A stretch of DNA of 64,000 nucleotides from Halichondria panicea (lineage: Eukaryota > Porifera > Demospongiae > Suberitida > Halichondriidae), in the NCBI RefSeq assembly GCF_963675165.1, contig NC_087379.1:3290201-3354200 (forward strand). The letters run 5' to 3'. Shown one piece after another: positions 379 through 35,689 of the stretch. A program made the position numbers and the translations under genes. The notes under the pieces are model-generated. The model was not told where the DNA came from, searched no databases, and worked only from the letters and a program-made list of their open reading frames with translations. Position 1 is the stretch's first letter. The number at the start of each line of letters is the position of its first letter.

Positions 379-1347
379 TAATATAATTATGCTTGTAAAA
401 ATCAGTTACATGTACAGAATTAAAATGTGGGGTGTTTTTGGTTCACAGATTTGCGAAGAGCAGTGCGGTCCAGTCTGATAAAGCCGTCCTCCTCCAGTCA
501 CACTCACACCTTCCCATCTGGTCAAGAAGTTCACAATCCTGACGATGATACATGGACTAAAACGTGTTCTGATTGTGGTTACCAAGTAATTTTTGAGAAA
601 ATGTGACAATATAATTGCCTTTGTGTCTACACTAGTCCCTCTGTTATTAGATCAGGATCATTTCCTTCATTATTTTGTTCTATCCTTCACAACTAACTCG
701 AGTTTCCTTTGAACATTCATACAGTAAAACTAATGTACAGTATAACGCCAAATTTTCACTGATTGATCTGAATCTCAAAATTATGCGCCTTGAAATTTTA
801 TATTTCCTACTTCCGGCAGTGTAAGGGGGATATCTCAAAAATAATAAATGTTTATTTTAAACAATCTGCAAAATATATGGTCCTTGAAAATATTGACCGT
901 GCTGTTTTTTTATGCACAATATTTTACCTACTGATATGCATAGGCAATGCAGTTTGTGGCCATTATTTACTAACTTTTGGATCAGTAGTGTCATCAGTGT
1001 TTATACATAATTATGCATGTAGTGATATCATGTGTACTGTACTACTTACTGTAAGCTAGAGCTGAACCTTAATTGGGCAATTAAAACGCAGTTAGTACAT
1101 TAATTGCCACCCTTGCTAAATAAAGGTGCCATAACTACAATTTATAGTCAGCGTAAACTTCGATCATGGTTATGAGCACAACGAATACCCTCTATACAGT
1201 TTCTAACTAAAATGCCATTATGATTTGTTATTAATTGCTAATTGCTAATTCTCCCTATTAAATAAGTGGTTTTTCCAGACAGGTTTCGTTTTACCACTAA
1301 TAGACGTACCATCAAAGTGGCATTCCCAGCATCCCCACCTGATGGAT

Positions 1348-1376
1348 GTGCGCACTCATCCATCAGGTACCTACCT
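1348..1376. repeat. Hairpin-forming inverted repeat
   Basis: The arms ACCTGATGGATG and CATCCATCAGGT are perfect reverse complements separated by a short GC-containing loop. It lies about 750 bp upstream of the forkhead start. It could be a transposon remnant or a regulatory palindrome; the sequence does not decide. Confidence 0.55.
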
Positions 1377-1836
1377 TTGACTTGAATAGGACCCAATTTT
1401 ACGGTTCAAGGAAAGCTGTTTAATCCAACCAAAGGAACGCAACTTTAGTCTGCTTTAATATCACCCCACTTTTTTCCCATACAAAGATCTGTGGACACAC
1501 AACGACAAAAATTCAAATTACCGCTCTCCCTGACGGGCAGTTACAGCTCAATAGCTTTGTTATCTGTTACCGTTCCTCAAGAGAAAGCAATAGTACACCA
1601 CACAATATTGCGTAATTTCCTGGTCACTAAATGATGCGATCTAGTTCATACTTAAAGCTAAAGATCAACAGTTATGTGATATATTAGTTGGTTCTGATTA
1701 GGAAGAAATGAGTGGTATGACTTACTCCTTTGCACTCAATGAGAGAATAATTTACGCTGGTTTTACCCTATATATAGGCACTTAACAGAATACATGTACT
1801 ACTTGTTGTTCAATATGAAGATATGTCTTCCAGCAC

Positions 1837-1845
1837 TATATAAAA
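1837..1845 (+). promoter_or_regulatory. Possible TATA box of the forkhead gene
   Basis: TATATAAAA lies about 275 bp upstream of the first in-frame ATG (2119), on the coding strand. AT-rich sequence is common here, so this is a position-based suggestion only. Confidence 0.25.
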
Positions 1846-2118
1846 CTGAGCTTTAATTTCAAGCAAGCAGCCCCGCCCCTACTGGAGTCATTTACCACAT
1901 TCCAATAAGCTTCTTATAACAATATTCATTAGATCTACTTGCCCATCCCACCTTTTAGCTTATAGAGAGCTAACTAGCTAGCTCTAGTTTCAGCTAGTAC
2001 ACAGTATTGGAAAAGAATGGTAGATACAGTGAACGTGAAAGTCCAGTCACATTCTTCCCTAGTATAAAAGAGAAGTTTTTATCATTAAGATTTGTCAAAG
2101 AGAAAAGAGAGGGACTCA

Positions 2119-5100
2119 ATGACTACCCAGAGTACCAAAAGGATGGACCTAGGGAACAGCCTAACTGCCATAGACTGGCTACCCAGGCTCACCTCAGCAA
2201 GGCCGGCAGGGAAGATGGAAGCACCCTCAGAACCCCACAGGATTTTGAAAACTCCCACAAGAAAGCCTCCACCTAGTCCCATTGACCTGACAGCTAGACT
2301 AGACCCCAATGAAGCTCAGGCCTACATGTGCCAGGATGCTAAACCACCTTACTCATATGCTGCCCTTATAACATTTTCTATCAACAGTTCTCCAAGGCGG
2401 CGAATGACACTGAATGAGATATACACTTGGATCTCAAGCAACTTTCCCTACTACAGAGATGCCGGTACTGGGTGGAAGGTATGTTAAGATGTCAACCACT
2501 CAGCTGTTCATAATTTATAGCTTGCATGACAAATAACATTATGGCTGGGTGTAGGTAGATCTATGTATATGCGAATCAATAATAAGGGTGTGTGTATAAG
2601 TACTATTTCATGTTGGCAGAGATATTGAATGGAAGTGGGTGTAGCTGCATGTGTGGTGGGGTGTGTCTGGGTGCCCACTTTGAGCTGTGTTGTATGCCCT
2701 AATACTAATCAACTTACACTAACTGTCACTTCCCTGGTTACCCTGCATATGGTTACCCTGCATTTGAAGTGGTTAGGATTTTAAGTATTCAGTTTGCCAA
2801 ACCGTGCAATAACAAAACCACAGAATCCGTAATAACACAACATACTTTATTTCACGGACTCTTCATATACGGGGTACAAATTTTAAGAAACCATCACTTG
2901 TGTCATAATATAATATGTCCAAGGCAAGCTGTCTTAAAACTGTGGAGTGCCTATGCAGACTGGTAATTGCTATACTACTGTAACCTTCTTTAAATGAAAC
3001 TTAATATGGGAGCCATAACATGAGAAGTATGTAGTGATCACCCAAGACAGTTGCTACTGTATACTGTTGTTGTAGGCAGACCAGGTGCCCAGCTGCCTAA
3101 TGCTTTCACTTCCTTGCATATGAAAAGGACTTGATTTCTGACAGGATTCTAGTGTTGGTATAGAGATTAGTGTGAATATCAGGTTGGGTGAGCTACTTAC
3201 TGAAAGGTATTTCTCAGACCATTTACCTGGCTCCAATCAACCATGACAACTATCAGCTGTTCTGACTAGTCATTTGTTTCTCCTTCTACAGAACTCAATC
3301 AGACATAACCTCTCCCTGAACAAGTGCTTCCGTAAAGTGCCTCGGCCAAAGGATGACCCAGGAAAAGTGAGCTCACCCATACATGTAATGTACACACTGA
3401 ATATTAATTTTGTTAATGTATTTCCCTGTATAAACTACATAAACTGGTGTGTACACAATGTGAGGATCCTCTAATGTTTACTATGAGTTGCTGTTGTGAT
3501 TTTGTAACTGTGTCACACATAGCAATGTAAACCATGGTATTCCAGACTTGGCTTCACGATAATTATTGTGCTGTGTCAGCTTGTGTGGTATGCTTATTGA
3601 AGCCCTCAAAACCAGAACCACAACATTTTTGTGACCAGAATTCAAAGCACTGTGTTAGGGTAGAGCCATCTCCTATTCTGATGTGCCACTTTGTCTGTTA
3701 TCAGTTGCCTCTATAGTAACTTCTTAAAAACGAGTTATAACGGTCGTCACTTGTTAACACCCATGGCAACAATTCCCACCTTGATGTGGCCTAAGTTGTC
3801 ACTCAATCACACCAGCTATGGTGGCACCTCAAAGAATGCAGGGGTGTGGTGGTAGAAATCATCTTCAAAATGTGTAGGATATAATTTTAATTTGAAGGAA
3901 ATTCAACGCTATCTGTTGATACTCCTGAAATTATTTTGTCTTATTTCATCCCTATTGTGTATGTGGTTCTATCTACAGTGTAATGTAGTGTAAGCAGCTC
4001 TTAACAATTACCAGTAATTATCACCACGACAAAGTAGTTTACAGTTACACAACGTGGATCTGTTAATTTCTTGTGTGCAGGGCTCGTACTGGGAGATTGA
4101 CCCCACTCCTCTGGAAGAGAGCGGAGATTCCATCTCACTATCAGGGTTCCCACGCAAGAGGAAGATCAGTGAAAGAGTGAGTGCTGAAGATCTGTACAGC
4201 CATCTTAGTTTAAATATTCTGTTACATACTTTTGTGTAGGATGGAAAGGTGCACGATAATTGCTTTCCTGCGGTACATTTCAACATCTGTTGTAGACATG
4301 CAAGGGTGTACATGGTTCTGCTGCTGTGTTCATAGCAATAAAATGGCCATATGCTTCTTCATCATGCAATGTATTCTTGAATAGTTTTGTAACAGTATAT
4401 ACACATGTAGGTCACATGAGAAACTCCCACTCTTGTCAGCACTTGGTGTACATAGGCAATGTTGTTTCCAAGTCCAGTGCACTAGTTACGTGCAGACATG
4501 TGAACAATTTCCTGTCCTAAGTACGGCGTAATTAATAATCAGATCACATTTCTTGCCTTGCTGATTCGAAATGTATACTTTTACAGTTGCATCATTGTTC
4601 ATAATATACCCTTGTAACAACATTCCATTAAAGCCCCATAGCAATGCCCCACTGTTTTGCTTATCACTTTTGTAACATTTTGAGCCTCGTGTGGTTCTTC
4701 TCGAATTGACACAATTAAGAAGGGTATACGTTGGTATGGAGTTAAACAGTATTCAGATAGAATAGCACTACTGTCGATGTAAACTCGTAGTTATACCCAC
4801 CAATGAAATTACACTGCCATAGTGGATACGAATCAATTTGATTCTGCACATTGGTCGGTAATTGTGTGATTCTAGAAGGCATGACTTTAGTAAGCTATTG
4901 TACATGTTTCCAATATCTCGTATACATTAATTTTGCACTAAAAATTGGGGGGTGTTCAGTTCGTCTTGATTTGTCTAGTGGCCCCAGGCTGATTACTGAC
5001 ATGTGTGGACTTATACATGTTATGTAAATTCATGAATGTGAGAGTGTGTGGGTGAAGTGTCAAGCATTGCAAGGTTGGCTTGCATACACAGTGAGATTCA

Positions 5101-6307
5101 TTTCATACCTGGATACTGCAACAAACATATGATTATGTGTCGGTTAGTTATTCATTGCAGCTCCATTGGATGTTCTAGACTTACTGCAAGCTTCCTGTGA
5201 ATACTGAATATGTTTATTGCATTCACAAAATTGACATATTAATTATATATACCGTACTCACTGACAGTTACTGTACCGTATAGGTGTGAAAACTGTCTAA
5301 TATAATCCACCATCCTGTAGCTCTCCTCTTCTGAAGATGCCAAACAAGAGCCAAAAGATTACAAGACCAAAACCACTCCAATTAAATGGAACGAGTCTCA
5401 TCTGAGACAAAGCTCATCTCCGACTCTAGCAGAGCTAAACACTGACCCCCCACGAGCCAAGCGACCAGCTTTTTCAGCCGCCTACAGCCCTCCATCCCAC
5501 CACACACACCCATACTCTACCACAGTATCGGACAGCTCAGCTACCACTCTATCTCTGCCAACTATGGCCTTCAATGACAAAGAAGGTCTTGACGAGCTCA
5601 GCTCATCTTTCAGAAGTTTATACAAGTCCCTGTATAGTCAATCAATGGCGGAAGGTGCATACCTCAACGCAGATATCTTACCGCACATACCAACCCAGGA
5701 GTTGGGTGTCTCTTCTGATTCTAGTAGCATCCCTCTTGGCGCTTCAGCCACTACTCTATTAGGTGGCAACGAAGGAAACCATACGGAATTTTTGGGTCTC
5801 ATGGATAGCTTTCGTGATATTGCTGATGCCAAAACATGGGATAAACTTGACCCTGCACATATTCAAGGTTTACTTGATTCCTTCAAAACTGGACAGCATG
5901 ACAAGTTCGGATTGGACGCAAAGACATATGCAGATGTGCACGCTTCATTCAACCAGTTTGTATCACAGCTGAGCAATCGATTCGTAACTATCGGCAACAC
6001 ATCAAGCCTCAACAATTACAGCCACCATCCACTGGGAGGAGCACCACCCATGGGCCATCACAATGGTGGTGGACACCACAGCTACCAAATAGACACTGGA
6101 ATATTATCTCCGGTTCAACTAGGGGGTATTAATCATAACTCTCCGCCAGAGTTCAATCCATCCCCAATGTACCCTGGAGCCGGGGCCTATGGAGCCTACA
6201 ACACAGCCACTCTCAGCTCACTAGCACAACAACCAAACCATCACAGAACTGGCCTAGAGATGTTTGAAGATGTCGAAGATGATTTTGATTGGTCAAAGCT
6301 CATGTAA
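2119..6307 (+). CDS. foxJ2/3-like: Forkhead transcription factor, FoxJ2/3-like
   Basis: Four exons are read: 2119-2478, 3292-3366, 4081-4176 and 5321-6307, all joining in phase 0, giving 505 residues. The forkhead DNA-binding domain spans about residues 75-165 and starts [10 protein letters not shown]. It continues with [10 protein letters not shown], the join [16 protein letters not shown], and [17 protein letters not shown]. The [12 protein letters not shown] form is typical of FoxJ2/3 rather than FoxA or FoxO. A basic stretch PRKRK after the domain is a likely nuclear signal. The long last exon is Ser/Thr/His-rich and ends in an acidic segment [13 protein letters not shown], which resembles the acidic C-termini of FoxJ2/3 (from memory). 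The start was chosen as the first in-frame ATG after a stop at 2086; a further 5' exon is possible. Family role: nuclear transcriptional regulator. Subfamily assignment is strong, orthology inferred. Confidence 0.9.
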
Positions 6308-27850: not shown

Positions 27851-30800
27851 TCACATTGTGTGCAAGTAGTTCTCCACTGGCAGTTGTGTCTTTTGCTCTA
27901 AAGAGTCCCAAATCCAATCAGACTTGAGGCACTTGATGTCCCCAGAATCCTACACCAGCATATCACGAATCAAACAATGACGTAGACACACACACACACA
28001 CAGCGCAGTACATCACCTTAGGTGTTTCATTGCCAATGATGTAGGTAGCCAGTGACTTTTGATGCTCGTCTAACACCTCACCGTCATACCTGTACAGAGA
28101 TAGGACTTTACTCGCTACTACAGGTCTGCAAAATAATACTGCATGTTTGTATGCATGCAAATACCATAATCGTGAAAGAAATGTCTTTATAGATCGATGC
28201 ATGTGCACAACAATCTGCCTAATGAAACAGATCGAATCACATACAATGTACATGTACATGCAACTGCTTCAGATAAACGACGTACGCCGTGAAATATCTT
28301 TCAAGTTGCAGTGAATTCAGAGTATTTGGTAGAATGTAAACTTTGACCCCAGTGAAGATGTCCAATAGAGGCTGCATGGAGTGACACAACAAGTCAATTA
28401 TGGTTCAGTCAATGTCTTCTGTCACACATACCTTCTCAATCTTTAACCCAGCACTCTCAAGCTTATGAGTCGTCAGAACATCCTGTAGATATAATTATAG
28501 AGGTGATTGGACACAATCTCCACAGTCTATGGAGTCAGTTCGAATTTCAAGGAATGAATTGAACCACAAAGAACAGCTCATCAACACCCTATGGCTATTT
28601 ATTATGTACCGGCCTGTGTACCTGTGTATTTTGTACCGAATCACTATAGCAATAGGAAATATCCCATTTGGCTAACTGACACTTTCTGCTTAGGAAACAG
28701 ACTTCCCTAACTGCATGGAGTACTAGGTCCTACCTACATGTACACACCCCCACAAATTCAGTACTGTATATATACACAAGGTTGGGGGCACATTTCTTTT
28801 CTGTTACATAGTTATGCATAGTGAGGCATTGTTTTGTACACATATTGTACACGTCTATTCCAACTGCAGACGTATCACACACATTGCTACTTGCCCATGG
28901 GTGTTCAAACTCCTCCATGTGTTTAGGGTTTGCCTGGTAGCACTTTGGGCCATACTTGCAGACTGGTTTTGACCTCTTAGGTGATGGTTTGGGGTTACCC
29001 TCTAGTTTCCTCTTAGTGGGTGTTTTCTTGGGGCTAGCCATTGTATCGCAGTCACTGCCTCCACCAGAACCACTGGCCTGGGCTACGGACGTCATCAAAT
29101 CAGGAATGTCTGCAGATGGATTTACAGTACAAACTAATGAACATAATAGCTAGGTAAAATTGGGGGCTAAAATGACTGTATGTTCATAAATAATTGTGTG
29201 TATTAAAGTTGGTTTCCAAGTTTCAACAAAGAAGAATCTCACAAGAAGCTTAATTTGCATTGCATACATGTATATGTTACTGTGCATCACATTCTGCATG
29301 CACTTACCGATAAATTCTTTCGACTTTTCGTATAAGACCTATAGATAAGCAAAAACATTATTAGGATATCTAAGAAGTGGTTACAATTAGTAAACCTTCA
29401 GCCTGGCCAGATCAGTGGCAGTTGACCAGTTCTTGTCGTCCCTGATTCGTGTGACTCGTGGGAAGCGGATGGAGATACCTCCTGCGGTATGAATGTTGGA
29501 GCTGGAGAATTCGGCACCAGTGATCTCCCACACAGGGGCAATCTGAGAACAGAGGAAGAACATAGAGTGCATTATATCACTAGAAAATGATCGCTCAGTT
29601 GGTAAGATTGATAGCAAAAGGCATTTACACTGTATATATACTGTATTAATTTTGTCTGAAACAACCCTTACAAGATCTGAAGCAGATTTAAAAGTCAACA
29701 AAGCTTTCTTATTGACAAGCTAAGATGCACACAGAAACGGCAGCTTTAATTCAAGACCTCCAGGTATGTACTGAGTGGAGCTATTCACAAGTTGTTTTGT
29801 TCAGCTGTGCGGGTGTCTGTACCAGCAAACTGGACTGCCCATCATGTACAGTTCTACACACATTTAACTATAGATCTGTAAAAATCCAATGTAGGATGTA
29901 CATAGAGCACGGGTTATCAACATAATACATAATTATATCACTACTTTTGTGAACGCGTACTGCAAATCCATAAATGGAAGTCTGCATGTAGAAGCTATGA
30001 CTAGGATGGATGAAGACCCAAAGAAAGCTTATACAGCACACTGTGTTAAAGAAGCCAACAAATTCTAGTGCTATTCAGATCTGTACTACAATGTATTTGA
30101 GTATCCTCATTCAGTAACTTGCCTTTGGGTCCCTGATGACTAAATCTGGAACAACACTTTTATTCACCAATAACCAGGAAGGAACCTTGGAAGAATCCTG
30201 AAAACAAAACAAAAAAGATGAAAGTATTGCAGTGTGTTTACATTACGTCTGTTAAAACGATACATTTAAACACCTCCATGTAAATAAAATTTACAACCTT
30301 GCTGATCTTGACCATATCCAACTCGTCTTGCAGTTTGGCAATCGTAGCATCATCATGACCATTACCACACTTGGCCACAGTACAGAACTTCCCAGTGGAG
30401 GAATCATAAAGCCCCATTAGAAATACTGACATCATTCCCCCTGTGCGAAGAAACAGTGGCAGTGTACTACATAGGTTAGTCCTTAAATATAATAATGTAC
30501 AAATAAATGCACATTATAATTATACATCTGCATGTTCCACAAACCAGCCTATAATTATGGAAACATACTTTTTTTTTTATAAGTAATACACTGCTGTGCC
30601 ATGCATAAAATTAGGACTGAAAAAGCTCGAGATACATTATGTACCTTTGTTTCCTGTTCCATAGTAGGCTCCCAGCACGATTAGGTCGGCAGTGTCTGCC
30701 ATAGCCCCGCCTTCTAGGTAGTCCTTCTTCACCTTGAGCCAGTGACGCTTCCCGGGCTCATACACACTCTGGAACAATATCATCTTACACAACATACATA

Positions 30801-33800
30801 ATTATGATGTACAATGAACTATGGTCACATGTCCGTATAGTTAAGTACAAGAGACGCACAATGTATTTGATCAACAATGAAATCACTGGACGGTGTTGGT
30901 TACACTCTGTCGACATAATTTAATCCCACACTCAGGTTCTGTGTGTGCATGTGCGGTGATTACAGACACACCAACCTTAGTGTCCTTGAGCACGAGTCCC
31001 TCCAGCCCCTGCTTGATCACCTTCATGATCAGGTCAGACAAGTCCTCTTCTTGCTGCAAGACATACATAACATGTACACAATGTATATGCCTTGAGCAAC
31101 AATGTATATGCCTTCAGCAACAAGCTACATACGTTACAGTGAACTGGGTGTGTAGTATACGTACTCTAATAAGCTTTTGCTCTGACAGCATTATCCGGTT
31201 TTTGACTTCCTTGATATTCTGCTCCAAAATCTTCCTTCTCTCCATCAGAGGTCTGGTATGGCAATAATAGTGTGAGCAGTGTTCCGTGGATAATAATACT
31301 TACTTGTCCATAAGTGTTTCACCATTGAAATATACAATATCAAAGATGAATAAGCAGCAGCAAGCATCTTTAAAAGCCGATTTCTGAAAAGGGAATAAAT
31401 GTCTGCATATGAAACATGGAAAGGAGGAGATGCATTTTCATTCAAACCTTATGAATCCCCAGAGTGCCAAATGGAAGTGGTTTGCCTGTGTTGGTGTCCA
31501 CCATGAGTACCTGCACAAAGGAGAGTTTTAAATATATATCAATTGCTTACAGTACTCACCTCAGCATCCAGAATCATATTGTCACCATGGGGACAAGCTT
31601 TAGAGAGGTAGTCCTTTATATGCTCGACCTACAGACAGAACACATAATTATGGCATGCACAAGTTTAGCGAAGAGTAAAAGTGCAAAGTCCTAGGCGGAT
31701 GACGTTTCTATTACTAGCAAAGTTTCTACCGTTCAAAAAATGGAAATTTGTTTGTCTGCTTGAACTTCATGTATGCCAGCCTATATTCAATATTTTTTCG
31801 TATACATGCACAGCTGACCTTGTGAGGCTGCACTGCCTTTAGACTCCTACTGAAGTACTCGAACTTGTTACCCTGTTTGTGCACCTGCACTCTCTCTCCA
31901 TCGTACTTGATCTCAGCATACATCCCATTAGGGCACTTCTTCATTGCCATGGCAACAGCACGGCATGCCTCAGCCTATTATAGCCAAAAGTACATAATGC
32001 GTGAAAACTATAGATTGTAATTATACACAAATAATTATATAAACCATATACATGTAACACGTAGCAAACAATTATTTCAGGACTTTAACCAAAGTTCATC
32101 ATTGATCATGTGTTTTGCTGTGCCACTAATGCATACACACCATGCAGCACCTAGTGTAACATGCTCTACTTACCAGCATTGGTTTAACTGGCGTCATTAG
32201 GCTGGCTCTCACACTTATCCCCCTCTTCAGTGACGGTCGACCATCACCACCCTCACTACTCTCACCCCCTCCACCTAGCACACGCTCCACAACGTCTTGC
32301 AGGTCATTGGATGCTTGAAACGCCTTGTATGCTTTCGGGTCTAGAGCATCCAAACTGAAGACGGGTGAAACTATATTAACATGGTGGCATAACATTTTTC
32401 CATGCTTAGTGTGTATATAATTATTATATATACATATACTCACACATGCTTAGGCCCAGCAAAGATACGGAGGTCGTGCTTTAGCAGACGTACATAATAT
32501 TTGAGGTCTTCTTCGGAGCACCTGAGGTACAAGAAAGACAAGACAAGAATGTACCAACTGAAAACAGACTATTAGGGATTGGGTGATGTCAATGAATACC
32601 ATGGCAAGGTTGTTACATAGATAATCACTACTGATGAGTACAATTTAATGCGCAACAATCTTTTAATGTACACTTATAATGACAGAGTACGACTATGTAC
32701 AGTGTACATGTACGTACCGTTCGACAACTTGTTTGAGTTGTGCCCTCTGGTCGTCCTCCTTGGTTACCTTGGTTAACTCATCAAGATAAAAGTCCACCTG
32801 CAAGTGGATAGAGGCATTGAATGATGATTGAAGAACACTGCACCAAGTAGTGTATAATAGAAGGTGGCACAACATATTAAATTACAAGTGCATTTAAGTA
32901 TATTATAATTATGCACATAATCTTTCATAGTTCATAGCTGAGACAGTCTGAGATGGGTAAAATAATATGCATACAGAGTATTTCAGGGCTGCATTAATTT
33001 GCACACAACATAACTGTATCCATGGTGACGTACCTCGGCTAGAGTGAGGGCGCTCTTGCTTTGAGGAGGAGTGCAGCTGCTGGTCAGGAAAAATGTCTTG
33101 GCAGTTTCCGCCACATCTCCCTGTGGGGTAGTGAAGTACATCTATTAATACAAGGACAAACCTCCAGGGCACAAGAAAACTGTACCTTCTCCAGATCTTC
33201 AACCATGTCTTCTAAGCTGGTCCCAAAGATCTGGAGAGAAAGTAATTACATTAGCACAGTAAACACACTGCCAGTGCAAAGCTTTTGAGAGAAAATGTGA
33301 ATGTCTTTCTAGCTGCTACCTGTGCATGGCACAGGTCAATGAATTACCTGACTGAGAAGCTTGACAATTTGCTTGCTTTGCAAGTTGTACACCCTTTTCT
33401 TCCCAGCTGTCGGTAGCAACAGCTTTACCAATAAGTACACATCTCCATTATAGCCATCTACATGTAGGATTGGGAAATAATTGAAGCTGGAGACACAAAC
33501 AGAAGTAAGTACTAAGCAATTTACATTCACCTGTATGCTCATATACTGTACATGTACGTTCATCCATTTGTGGTCCACATCTATTATACGTATATCAACT
33601 TTCAGATTGAACACAGGCTGCATTTTAATTGTACACTAGCTATTTGAGAGCCTTACATGTAATAAAAACTGGTAATAATGATGCAGCCACAAACCTCCAC
33701 TGCTGCCACGCTTGATGAAATCAGATACTAGCTTTGTTTTCCCATTGTACTTGGGCTCCTTCTCCAGGCGTCCACAAAGAGCCCTAAACTCACTGAACAA

Positions 33801-35689
33801 GTTATCCTGGTTGGAAGGATCAGCTGGGATGGGTGGGGTACTTGGTGTGATGGTTGATGGTCCTGCACTACTTGCAGATGGCTTGCTCGGAGATTTTCCT
33901 GTGCAAAAGAAAAAATATGTGATGCTACCGATGCCAGTACAGTGATGTAAGTTGTAAAGAAGCGTCATTCAGCATGCATATTACCTGCAAGCACGCTGTG
34001 GTAGATTAGATTAGCTATATAATATTTTTAGACAGAAACTTCCTGGAGATTCTTATTGACCTAGGGACTTTGAGGTATCCCCAGTGAGAGTGGTTCGAAC
34101 AGCCTTTTTTGTCTTAGGCGGAGGCTTGCTTGTGACACACTCCTTGATCAGGTCCTTGATTTCCTGTTTTTCAGGGTCGTTGAGCTCAGGGAACCCATCC
34201 ACATCAGCAGGTGTCTCAATCTTCTTGGTTGTGGCTCGGGCACGCTGCAGGGTGTCATACAGGATTTGAAAGTATGGGGAGAATTTGTTATTATGATCTG
34301 AAGTGATTTCTGGTGGCTTATAGGTTGCCTTTGCATAATATTTTTGTCCATTCATACGAACATTGTCCCTTTCTCTCTGAATAAAAGGGGGGGGGGTAGT
34401 ATCATATCAGGGGGCAAAAAAATTTGGATTTTGTTGTGTATAGCTCTTAGACATTGCGTACTATAGCAACACACGAAACTTTAATATGTATGTCGCTCAT
34501 AATTATATGGCACCCAATTCGACTTTGTGCAGTCTCGCAAACAAAAATTATTGCTGACGCTCACAATAATTTTTTTTATATAACTGTCTAGATGCAGCTG
34601 TTACAGAGAACAAAAACCAAACATGCTGTCAGTACTACATACATCCACCTGAGTACTAAGAGACTGCACTAGACACTACACTACATTGTAGCTGTAGAGC
34701 ATAAGCGCCACTTGGGCTGAACGCAATTTTTGGGGGTTCTAAAAGATGCGCCACTCAGAAGAAGAATTAAATTTTTCTGGCGCTGGAATTAGGATAACCA
34801 AGACAAACCACAGGTTGAAACCAGCTTGGCTATATAATTTATTTCAACCTCGGAATAAGTATAATTAAGAAGTGAATACAGTATACTCTTGTTAATCCTG
34901 TCACCCTTGGGACAGTGCAGCTTAGCCGGAATAGTGAGGTGGCTGCATTTCAGACAATAGCCGTGGCTAAAAAATGTCTTAACCTCGAATCTAATGACTA
35001 ATTTTGCGATTTTGTCTCGAGGAAAATGAATCATTTTGCTCCAATTTTATCTGCCAAAATCATACCCAAAACGTCATATCTGGCCGTATAAAATCACATT
35101 AAAAACCTACATTTGGGGCAGCCAGTATACTGGCCAGTATACGGAATAGCGAGTGGCCGCAATCCGTGCCAAACCAAATGGCCGGTATATTTAGGTGGCC
35201 GTACTTTAGAGAACCGGAATAGCGAGAGTCTACTGTACTTGGTTTCAGCTCCACCACCCAATTTGCATATTTCCCTGGTTGCTTCAGCGTATGCACAGTA
35301 ACATAAATGCCTTTTTTTTCAAGATGTCGTTTGTTCTGAAGCCACACAAGCTAATTTTATATTACGACGTCATAATCATAATTATTATCCCCTATGAGCT
35401 GAAAACTTGAGGTGACCTAATATAATGTACACGTCTAGCCTCCGGCATATTTATAAGTACGAACACTTGTATAAACAGCTACTGGAGATCAACACCACAC
35501 GCTCACCTTAAATGTTTCGAATATACACCTCGTGTGATACCACACTTTCATGTCCCCACCATCATCACTGAAGGGGTTTGGAGTCATCTTACCAATGCGA
35601 CACACACCCTTCTCAATCTGGCTCTTGCACTTCTTGCATGAGCTACGACCAGTCTTGGCATACTCCACACAATACCGAGCATCAGCCAT
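27851..35689 (-). CDS. lig3: DNA ligase III with zf-PARP, PBZ and BRCT domains
   Basis: Twenty-five exons (minus): 35689-35507, 34376-34061, 33898-33695, 33457-33348, 33230-33186, 33120-33034, 32797-32718, 32521-32444, 32354-32174, 31974-31819, 31628-31560, 31510-31448, 31383-31304, 31252-31165, 31053-30976, 30768-30645, 30440-30298, 30197-30123, 29542-29396, 29338-29308, 29109-28883, 28482-28432, 28371-28286, 28125-28017, 27949-27851; 969 residues, in phase. It seals nicks in base-excision, single-strand-break and alternative end-joining repair, usually with XRCC1 (family knowledge). The N-terminal PARP-type zinc finger starts MADARYCVEYAKTGRSSCKK. The DNA-binding domain spans about 210-430. 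Nucleotidyltransferase motif I is EIKYDGER with the adenylated lysine at about 451; EGLVLKD (motif IV) and HWLKVKKDY (motif V) follow. Unusually, a PAR-binding zinc finger (Cys830, Cys836, His843, His849) precedes the C-terminal BRCT (about 870-969). The intron after 30123 uses a GC donor (AAAG/GCAAGT). No mitochondrial leader is visible. Confidence 0.95.
34876..35237. mobile_element. MITE, family C, copy 2
   Basis: It starts TACAGTATACTCTTGTTAATCC-like sequence and ends GGAATAGCGAGAGTCTACTG. It shares TGGGACAGTGCAG, CATACCCAAAACGTCATATC, GGGGCAGCCAGTA and CCAAACCAAATGGCCGGTAT with the copies at 22205 and 59806. It lies in LIG3 intron 1. Confidence 0.75.

Follow-up and report, generated by a model that had tools for sequence, protein, structure and literature searches.

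The DNA ligase III (LIG3) gene of Halichondria panicea encodes a PBZ zinc finger in the linker ahead of the C-terminal BRCT domain. In the reading that we favour with moderate confidence, this finger most likely binds poly(ADP-ribose) (PAR) at single-strand breaks, and would thereby add a second PAR contact to the XRCC1-LIG3 complex. The gene lies on the minus strand of a 64,000-nucleotide stretch of DNA (hereafter the window), which belongs to a 131-Mb genome whose genes carry introns.

Structure and identity of the LIG3 gene

We modeled the gene as 25 spliced coding exons, with the following features in window coordinates (basis in brackets).

27851..35689, minus strand: LIG3 gene, 25 coding exons, 957 amino acids (splice model; Pfam domains; 3l2p core match)
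35507..35689, minus strand: exon 1, most of the PARP-type zinc finger, amino acids 9-68, with the last residues in exon 2 (zf-PARP; 1uw0)
29396..33898, minus strand: exons 3-19, ligase core with DNA-binding, adenylation and OB domains, amino acids 201-757 (Pfam)
29308..29338, minus strand: exon 20, end of the ligase core, exiting in phase 1 (splice model)
28883..29109, minus strand: exon 21, 227 nt, Ser/Lys-rich linker and PBZ (splice model, skip test, coding and splice scores; 3' end possibly 28748)
28895..28969, minus strand: PBZ zinc finger, amino acids 827-851, ligands C830, C836, H843 and H849 (PF10283; alignment)
28432..28482, minus strand: exon 22, short PBZ-BRCT linker (splice model)
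27851..28371, minus strand: exons 23-25, LIG3-type BRCT, amino acids 873-944 (Pfam; structure matches)

The model contains no stop through its 25 exons and yields a complete protein, and a pseudogene was rejected on this ground. Its 24 introns all end in AG, and begin with GT in 23 cases and with GC in one; intron 1 holds one short pair of inverted repeats. Pfam domains on the spliced protein followed the order PARP-type finger, three ligase-core domains, PBZ, and LIG3-type BRCT, all above their cut-offs, while the general models BRCT_2 and RNA_ligase overlapped these specific matches. Both this order and the frame of exon 21 bear out the initial annotation, which had proposed a PBZ before the BRCT of a DNA ligase III.

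Each of the three diagnostic parts points to LIG3. The N-terminal finger scored 71 bits against zf-PARP (Pfam; cut-off 39.3) and 105.3 bits against the DNA ligase III finger 1uw0. The core matched DNA_ligase_A_N, A_M, and A_C at 122.5, 216.2, and 51.2 bits, respectively, and its best solved structure was DNA ligase 3 (3l2p, 831.6 bits), followed by a thermostable ligase (2hiv, 196.4 bits), LIG1 (173.3 bits), and LIG4 (139.9 bits). The C-terminal BRCT scored 58.3 bits against LIG3_BRCT (PF16759; cut-off 27) and 45–46 bits against DNA ligase 3 BRCT chains. Structure chains such as 3l2p, and 2kqb and 2kuo below, are human. Judged by these matches, the minus-strand gene is a genuine DNA ligase III, with a PARP-type finger, a LIG3-like core, and a LIG3-type BRCT.

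LIG3 also appears to be single copy, since the other ligase matches of the genome are LIG1-like and LIG4-like: among the best candidates, which were the ones scored, PF01068 gave five matches at three places, namely the window, a gene resembling LIG1 on C17, and one resembling LIG4 on C14, and a second LIG3 copy was rejected on this basis. Searches with the C-terminal 529 of the 957 residues returned 35 pattern matches in bacterial and archaeal genomes and 14 in viral contigs, and confirmed no relative in either set.

Coding evidence for exon 21 and sequence of the finger

Exon 21 is entered in phase 1 and left in phase 0, and skipping it whole would bring in a stop after six codons and remove the BRCT. 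Under a codon model trained on the gene's remaining 24 exons, it scored +0.34 bits per codon in frame, compared to −0.18 and −0.36 in the two alternative frames, and exceeded all 149 overlapping windows taken from the five introns of sufficient length (mean −0.48, maximum 0.03). Its GC content (0.502) is likewise close to that of the other exons (0.473) and unlike that of the introns (0.374), so that the exon looks coding and would be expected in the transcript.

The splice sites are less even: the acceptor ranks 8th of 24, and the donor (AAT|GTGTGT) 16th of 24. An alternative donor lies 135 bases 3' of the modeled one, would likewise keep both finger and BRCT in frame, and has the higher score (7.3; the modeled donor reaches 6.4 on a matrix that includes it, and 5.2 on one that leaves it out). 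Because of this higher score and the preserved frame, the 3' end of the exon is uncertain and may lie at 28748. Two other in-frame donors, whose use would delete or truncate the finger, reach −4.2 and 0.5 (6.4 for the modeled donor), and six of six in-frame acceptors keep the finger core. As a separate observation, intron 21 (28882-28733, minus strand) stays open for 50 codons past the PBZ and holds no BRCT; its retention would give a BRCT-less LIG3, an outcome similar to vertebrate LIG3 beta as described in PMC4488670.

In the spliced frame, exon 29109-28883 (minus strand) encodes KPVCKYGPKCYQANPKHMEEFEH, with Cys830, Cys836, His843, and His849 as the predicted zinc ligands. The profile search that the initial annotation had proposed as a check gave a clear PBZ: PF10283 (zf-CCHH/PBZ; cut-off 22.7) scored 41.0 bits on the spliced protein, and 46.3 bits with an E of 9e-10 for the same finger (28969-28895) when the entire 131-Mb genome was searched in six frames; on this E value, a chance match was rejected. 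The best solved structures for the isolated piece were two APLF PBZ entries, 2kqb and 2kuo (49 bits, E about 1e-12).

The arrangement Cys-x5-Cys-x6-His-x5-His, with Phe/Tyr-Gly after the first Cys and Phe/Tyr before the last His, is present in the finger, which would be expected to fold around zinc. We aligned it with two further PBZs from the same genome and two of APLF, and nine columns were invariant across the five, namely the four zinc ligands, both Tyr (Tyr832 and Tyr837 in LIG3), Gly, and Asn-Pro. After the second Cys, the LIG3 finger carries Gln838-Ala839, whereas the other four PBZs all carry Arg-Lys. The published consensus includes two basic residues at this point (PMC4030884), and the LIG3 finger lacks them. 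The position-by-position consensus fit reported in the initial annotation thus held for the four ligands, including their numbering, but the consensus it had quoted left out the basic pair. In APLF, Arg387 and Arg429 are described as contacting phosphates and the two Tyr as contacting adenine rings (PMC6264785); by alignment, the phosphate-contacting Arg is a Gln in LIG3. Since the Pfam cut-off is passed despite Gln-Ala, we class the finger with the PBZ family, as a member whose binding position deviates, rather than as a proven PAR binder.

XRCC1, PAR enzymes, and other PBZ domains in the genome

XRCC1 is present in the genome: its N-terminal domain scored 112.3 bits, a BRCT1-like piece best matched XRCC1 2d8m (40.4 bits), and a 42-aa BRCT2-like piece had XRCC1 3qvg as its best match, with a modest score of 22.8 bits, while Pfam LIG3_BRCT gave 19.8, below the cut-off of 27. 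By these matches, the partner of LIG3 is encoded with a BRCT2-like exon, and we rejected the idea that the LIG3 finger is explained by XRCC1 loss, given the BRCT1- and BRCT2-like exons of XRCC1. PARP-domain sequences gave 56 matches, counted exon by exon rather than by gene and none of them assigned to PARP1, and PARG sequences gave 10.

Three side observations were made elsewhere in the genome. PARP-catalytic-domain exons are clustered at G000:C15:692184-770253, in about six similar copies within 78 kb, which suggests a local tandem expansion. An XRCC1 N-terminal domain also occurs in a second gene (L025, G000:C8; 74.5 bits), possibly XNDC1. At another locus (L049, G000:C8; ~500-5250, reverse-complement numbering), some 4 kb separate a Helicase_C exon (69.7 bits) from a LIG3-type BRCT exon (43.4 bits) downstream of it; by eye, this resembles a single gene of the ALC1/CHD1L type, and its macrodomain-like pieces had no Pfam match.

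Across the genome, PF10283 returned 12 first-look candidates, three above 40 bits, one at 25.7 bits, and eight below the cut-off. Besides the LIG3 finger, two are strong. One lies in an exon that opens with a PBZ (L023, G000:C13, plus strand, from 205; 43.7 bits). An HPF1-matching exon (58.1 bits) follows ~440 bases on, and the two exons are linked mainly by closeness, because the in-frame joins between them exist but are not unique. The other (L022, G000:C15, 291-369 on the reverse complement; 55.5 bits) lies in a first exon, with TDP1-like exons ~1.7 kb on (from 2077); here the join is in frame and the splice phases fit. This gene is probably a TDP1 with a PBZ; its identity comes from one modest match (22.5 bits against TDP1 structures; Pfam TDP1 15.6, below the cut-off of 22), and two further TDP1-like pieces gave no match. 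The 25.7-bit match and three weaker candidates fall in one APLF-like gene, where the PBZ halves are split between exons; we assigned an FHA region in this gene by visual inspection, and Pfam gave no FHA on that piece. In the second-best weak candidate (L038), nothing was recognised. A recent copy of an APLF exon into LIG3 was rejected, as the APLF-like PBZ halves lie, by eye, in separate exons and the LIG3 PBZ in one.

Proposed function and possible origin of the finger

According to PMC11952658, vertebrate XRCC1 is recruited by PAR, to which it binds through its central BRCT, and it holds LIG3 through its BRCT2. The same source describes mammalian LIG3 as arriving at breaks together with XRCC1, and the N-terminal finger of the ligase as an apparent break sensor. 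Vertebrate DNA ligase III alpha and the H. panicea protein are alike in the PARP-type finger, the DNA-binding, adenylation, and OB domains, and the C-terminal LIG3 BRCT, and differ in the PBZ that H. panicea LIG3 carries before the BRCT. The view in the initial annotation that vertebrate LIG3 has no PBZ agrees with an account giving APLF, CHFR, and SNM1A as the only three known PBZ proteins of mammals (PMC4030884).

For H. panicea, we propose that PARP activity at single-strand breaks would produce PAR to be bound by the PBZ of LIG3, while the LIG3 BRCT is predicted to pair with the BRCT2 of XRCC1. Through the central BRCT of XRCC1 and the PBZ of LIG3, the complex would then hold PAR at two points, which would raise avidity and keep the ligase near PARP-marked breaks. 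Given an XRCC1 gene that includes BRCT1- and BRCT2-like exons, the finger is more likely an addition to recruitment through XRCC1 than a bypass or a replacement of it. A PBZ is also dispensable for LIG3 function as such, since mammalian LIG3, as described, reaches breaks with XRCC1 and without one.

Direct PAR binding by the finger is plausible, and is supported by its closest solved relatives, the APLF PBZs, which bind PAR (PMC4030884), although the replacement of Arg-Lys by Gln-Ala suggests a modest affinity for the finger alone. Even a weak single finger could matter when linked to another PAR reader, by analogy with the tandem PBZs of APLF, where PAR affinity is reported to rise over 1000-fold (PMC4030884). 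The same substitution would argue for a different outcome, in which the PBZ fold was kept while PAR binding became weak or was lost, leaving the finger as a relic or with another partner (protein, DNA, RNA, or XRCC1). The position affected is the one where APLF contacts phosphates and where all four aligned PBZs keep Arg-Lys; however, the finger retains the two Tyr that contact adenine in APLF, along with Gly and Asn-Pro, and the HMM scores are well above the cut-off, and we regard this outcome as rather unlikely. Far more improbable is that exon 21 is mis-modeled or limited to some isoforms, with most LIG3 protein made without the finger: its middling donor, the rival donor downstream, and the two in-frame donors situated ahead of or within the finger would leave some room for this, but skipping would cost the BRCT, the finger-losing donors are poor, every in-frame acceptor spares the finger core, and the exon has a coding signal.

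Compatible with two-point PAR binding, and bearing instead on novelty, is the view that the LIG3 PBZ is an old and widespread feature of non-vertebrate animals that was lost in vertebrates, to which we give an even chance. The gene would then be typical of its group and simply unfamiliar. The same genome has PBZ exons ahead of HPF1 and probably TDP1, PBZ use is described as wider outside mammals (PMC4030884), and LIG3 homologs, spotty outside vertebrates, are reported to occur, again spottily, before the origin of animals (PMC4488670). On the other hand, such a feature is stated nowhere in the literature searched, the Dictyostelium account names PBZ proteins other than LIG3, and the bacterial, archaeal, and viral searches confirmed no relative. 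A PBZ may be common in invertebrate LIG3, and no statement of a PBZ in LIG3 was found in the literature searched, a scope that did not include the founding PBZ paper (Ahel et al. 2008). A broader scenario, which we consider possible but doubtful, is that direct PAR reading by the ligase was an early animal trait, with three single-strand-break proteins, HPF1, TDP1, and LIG3, each carrying its own PBZ here, and that vertebrates shifted the job to XRCC1 and APLF.

Several known systems resemble this arrangement in part. Dictyostelium LIG3 also carries an ADP-ribose reader missing from vertebrate LIG3, but that reader is a macrodomain and not a PBZ (PMC5087659). Ligase E/Ligase K of bdelloid rotifers and some other animals and fungi is likewise an ATP-dependent DNA ligase with PBZ domains, yet it is assigned to a lineage of its own, apart from Lig1 and Lig3/4 (PMC6264785, PMC10665377), and its rotifer copies have one or two PBZs, often at other positions. 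APLF, SNM1A, and Dictyostelium Ku70 are repair proteins with a PBZ, although not LIG3, and APLF has Arg-Lys in place of the Gln-Ala of the sponge finger; the PBZ of Dictyostelium Ku70 is reported as required for enrichment on damaged chromatin (PMC8529158, PMC5087659), and that of human SNM1A as implicated in recruitment (PMC11199599).

If LIG3 does read PAR directly in H. panicea, the protein would be one more example of a ligase fitted with an ADP-ribose reader, beside the macrodomain-bearing LIG3 of Dictyostelium and the PBZ-bearing Ligase E/K. How far LIG3 depends on XRCC1 could then be tested through comparisons and through insertion or deletion of the finger in laboratory cells, and the final enzyme of single-strand break repair could carry its own PAR reader and may find the break signal itself.
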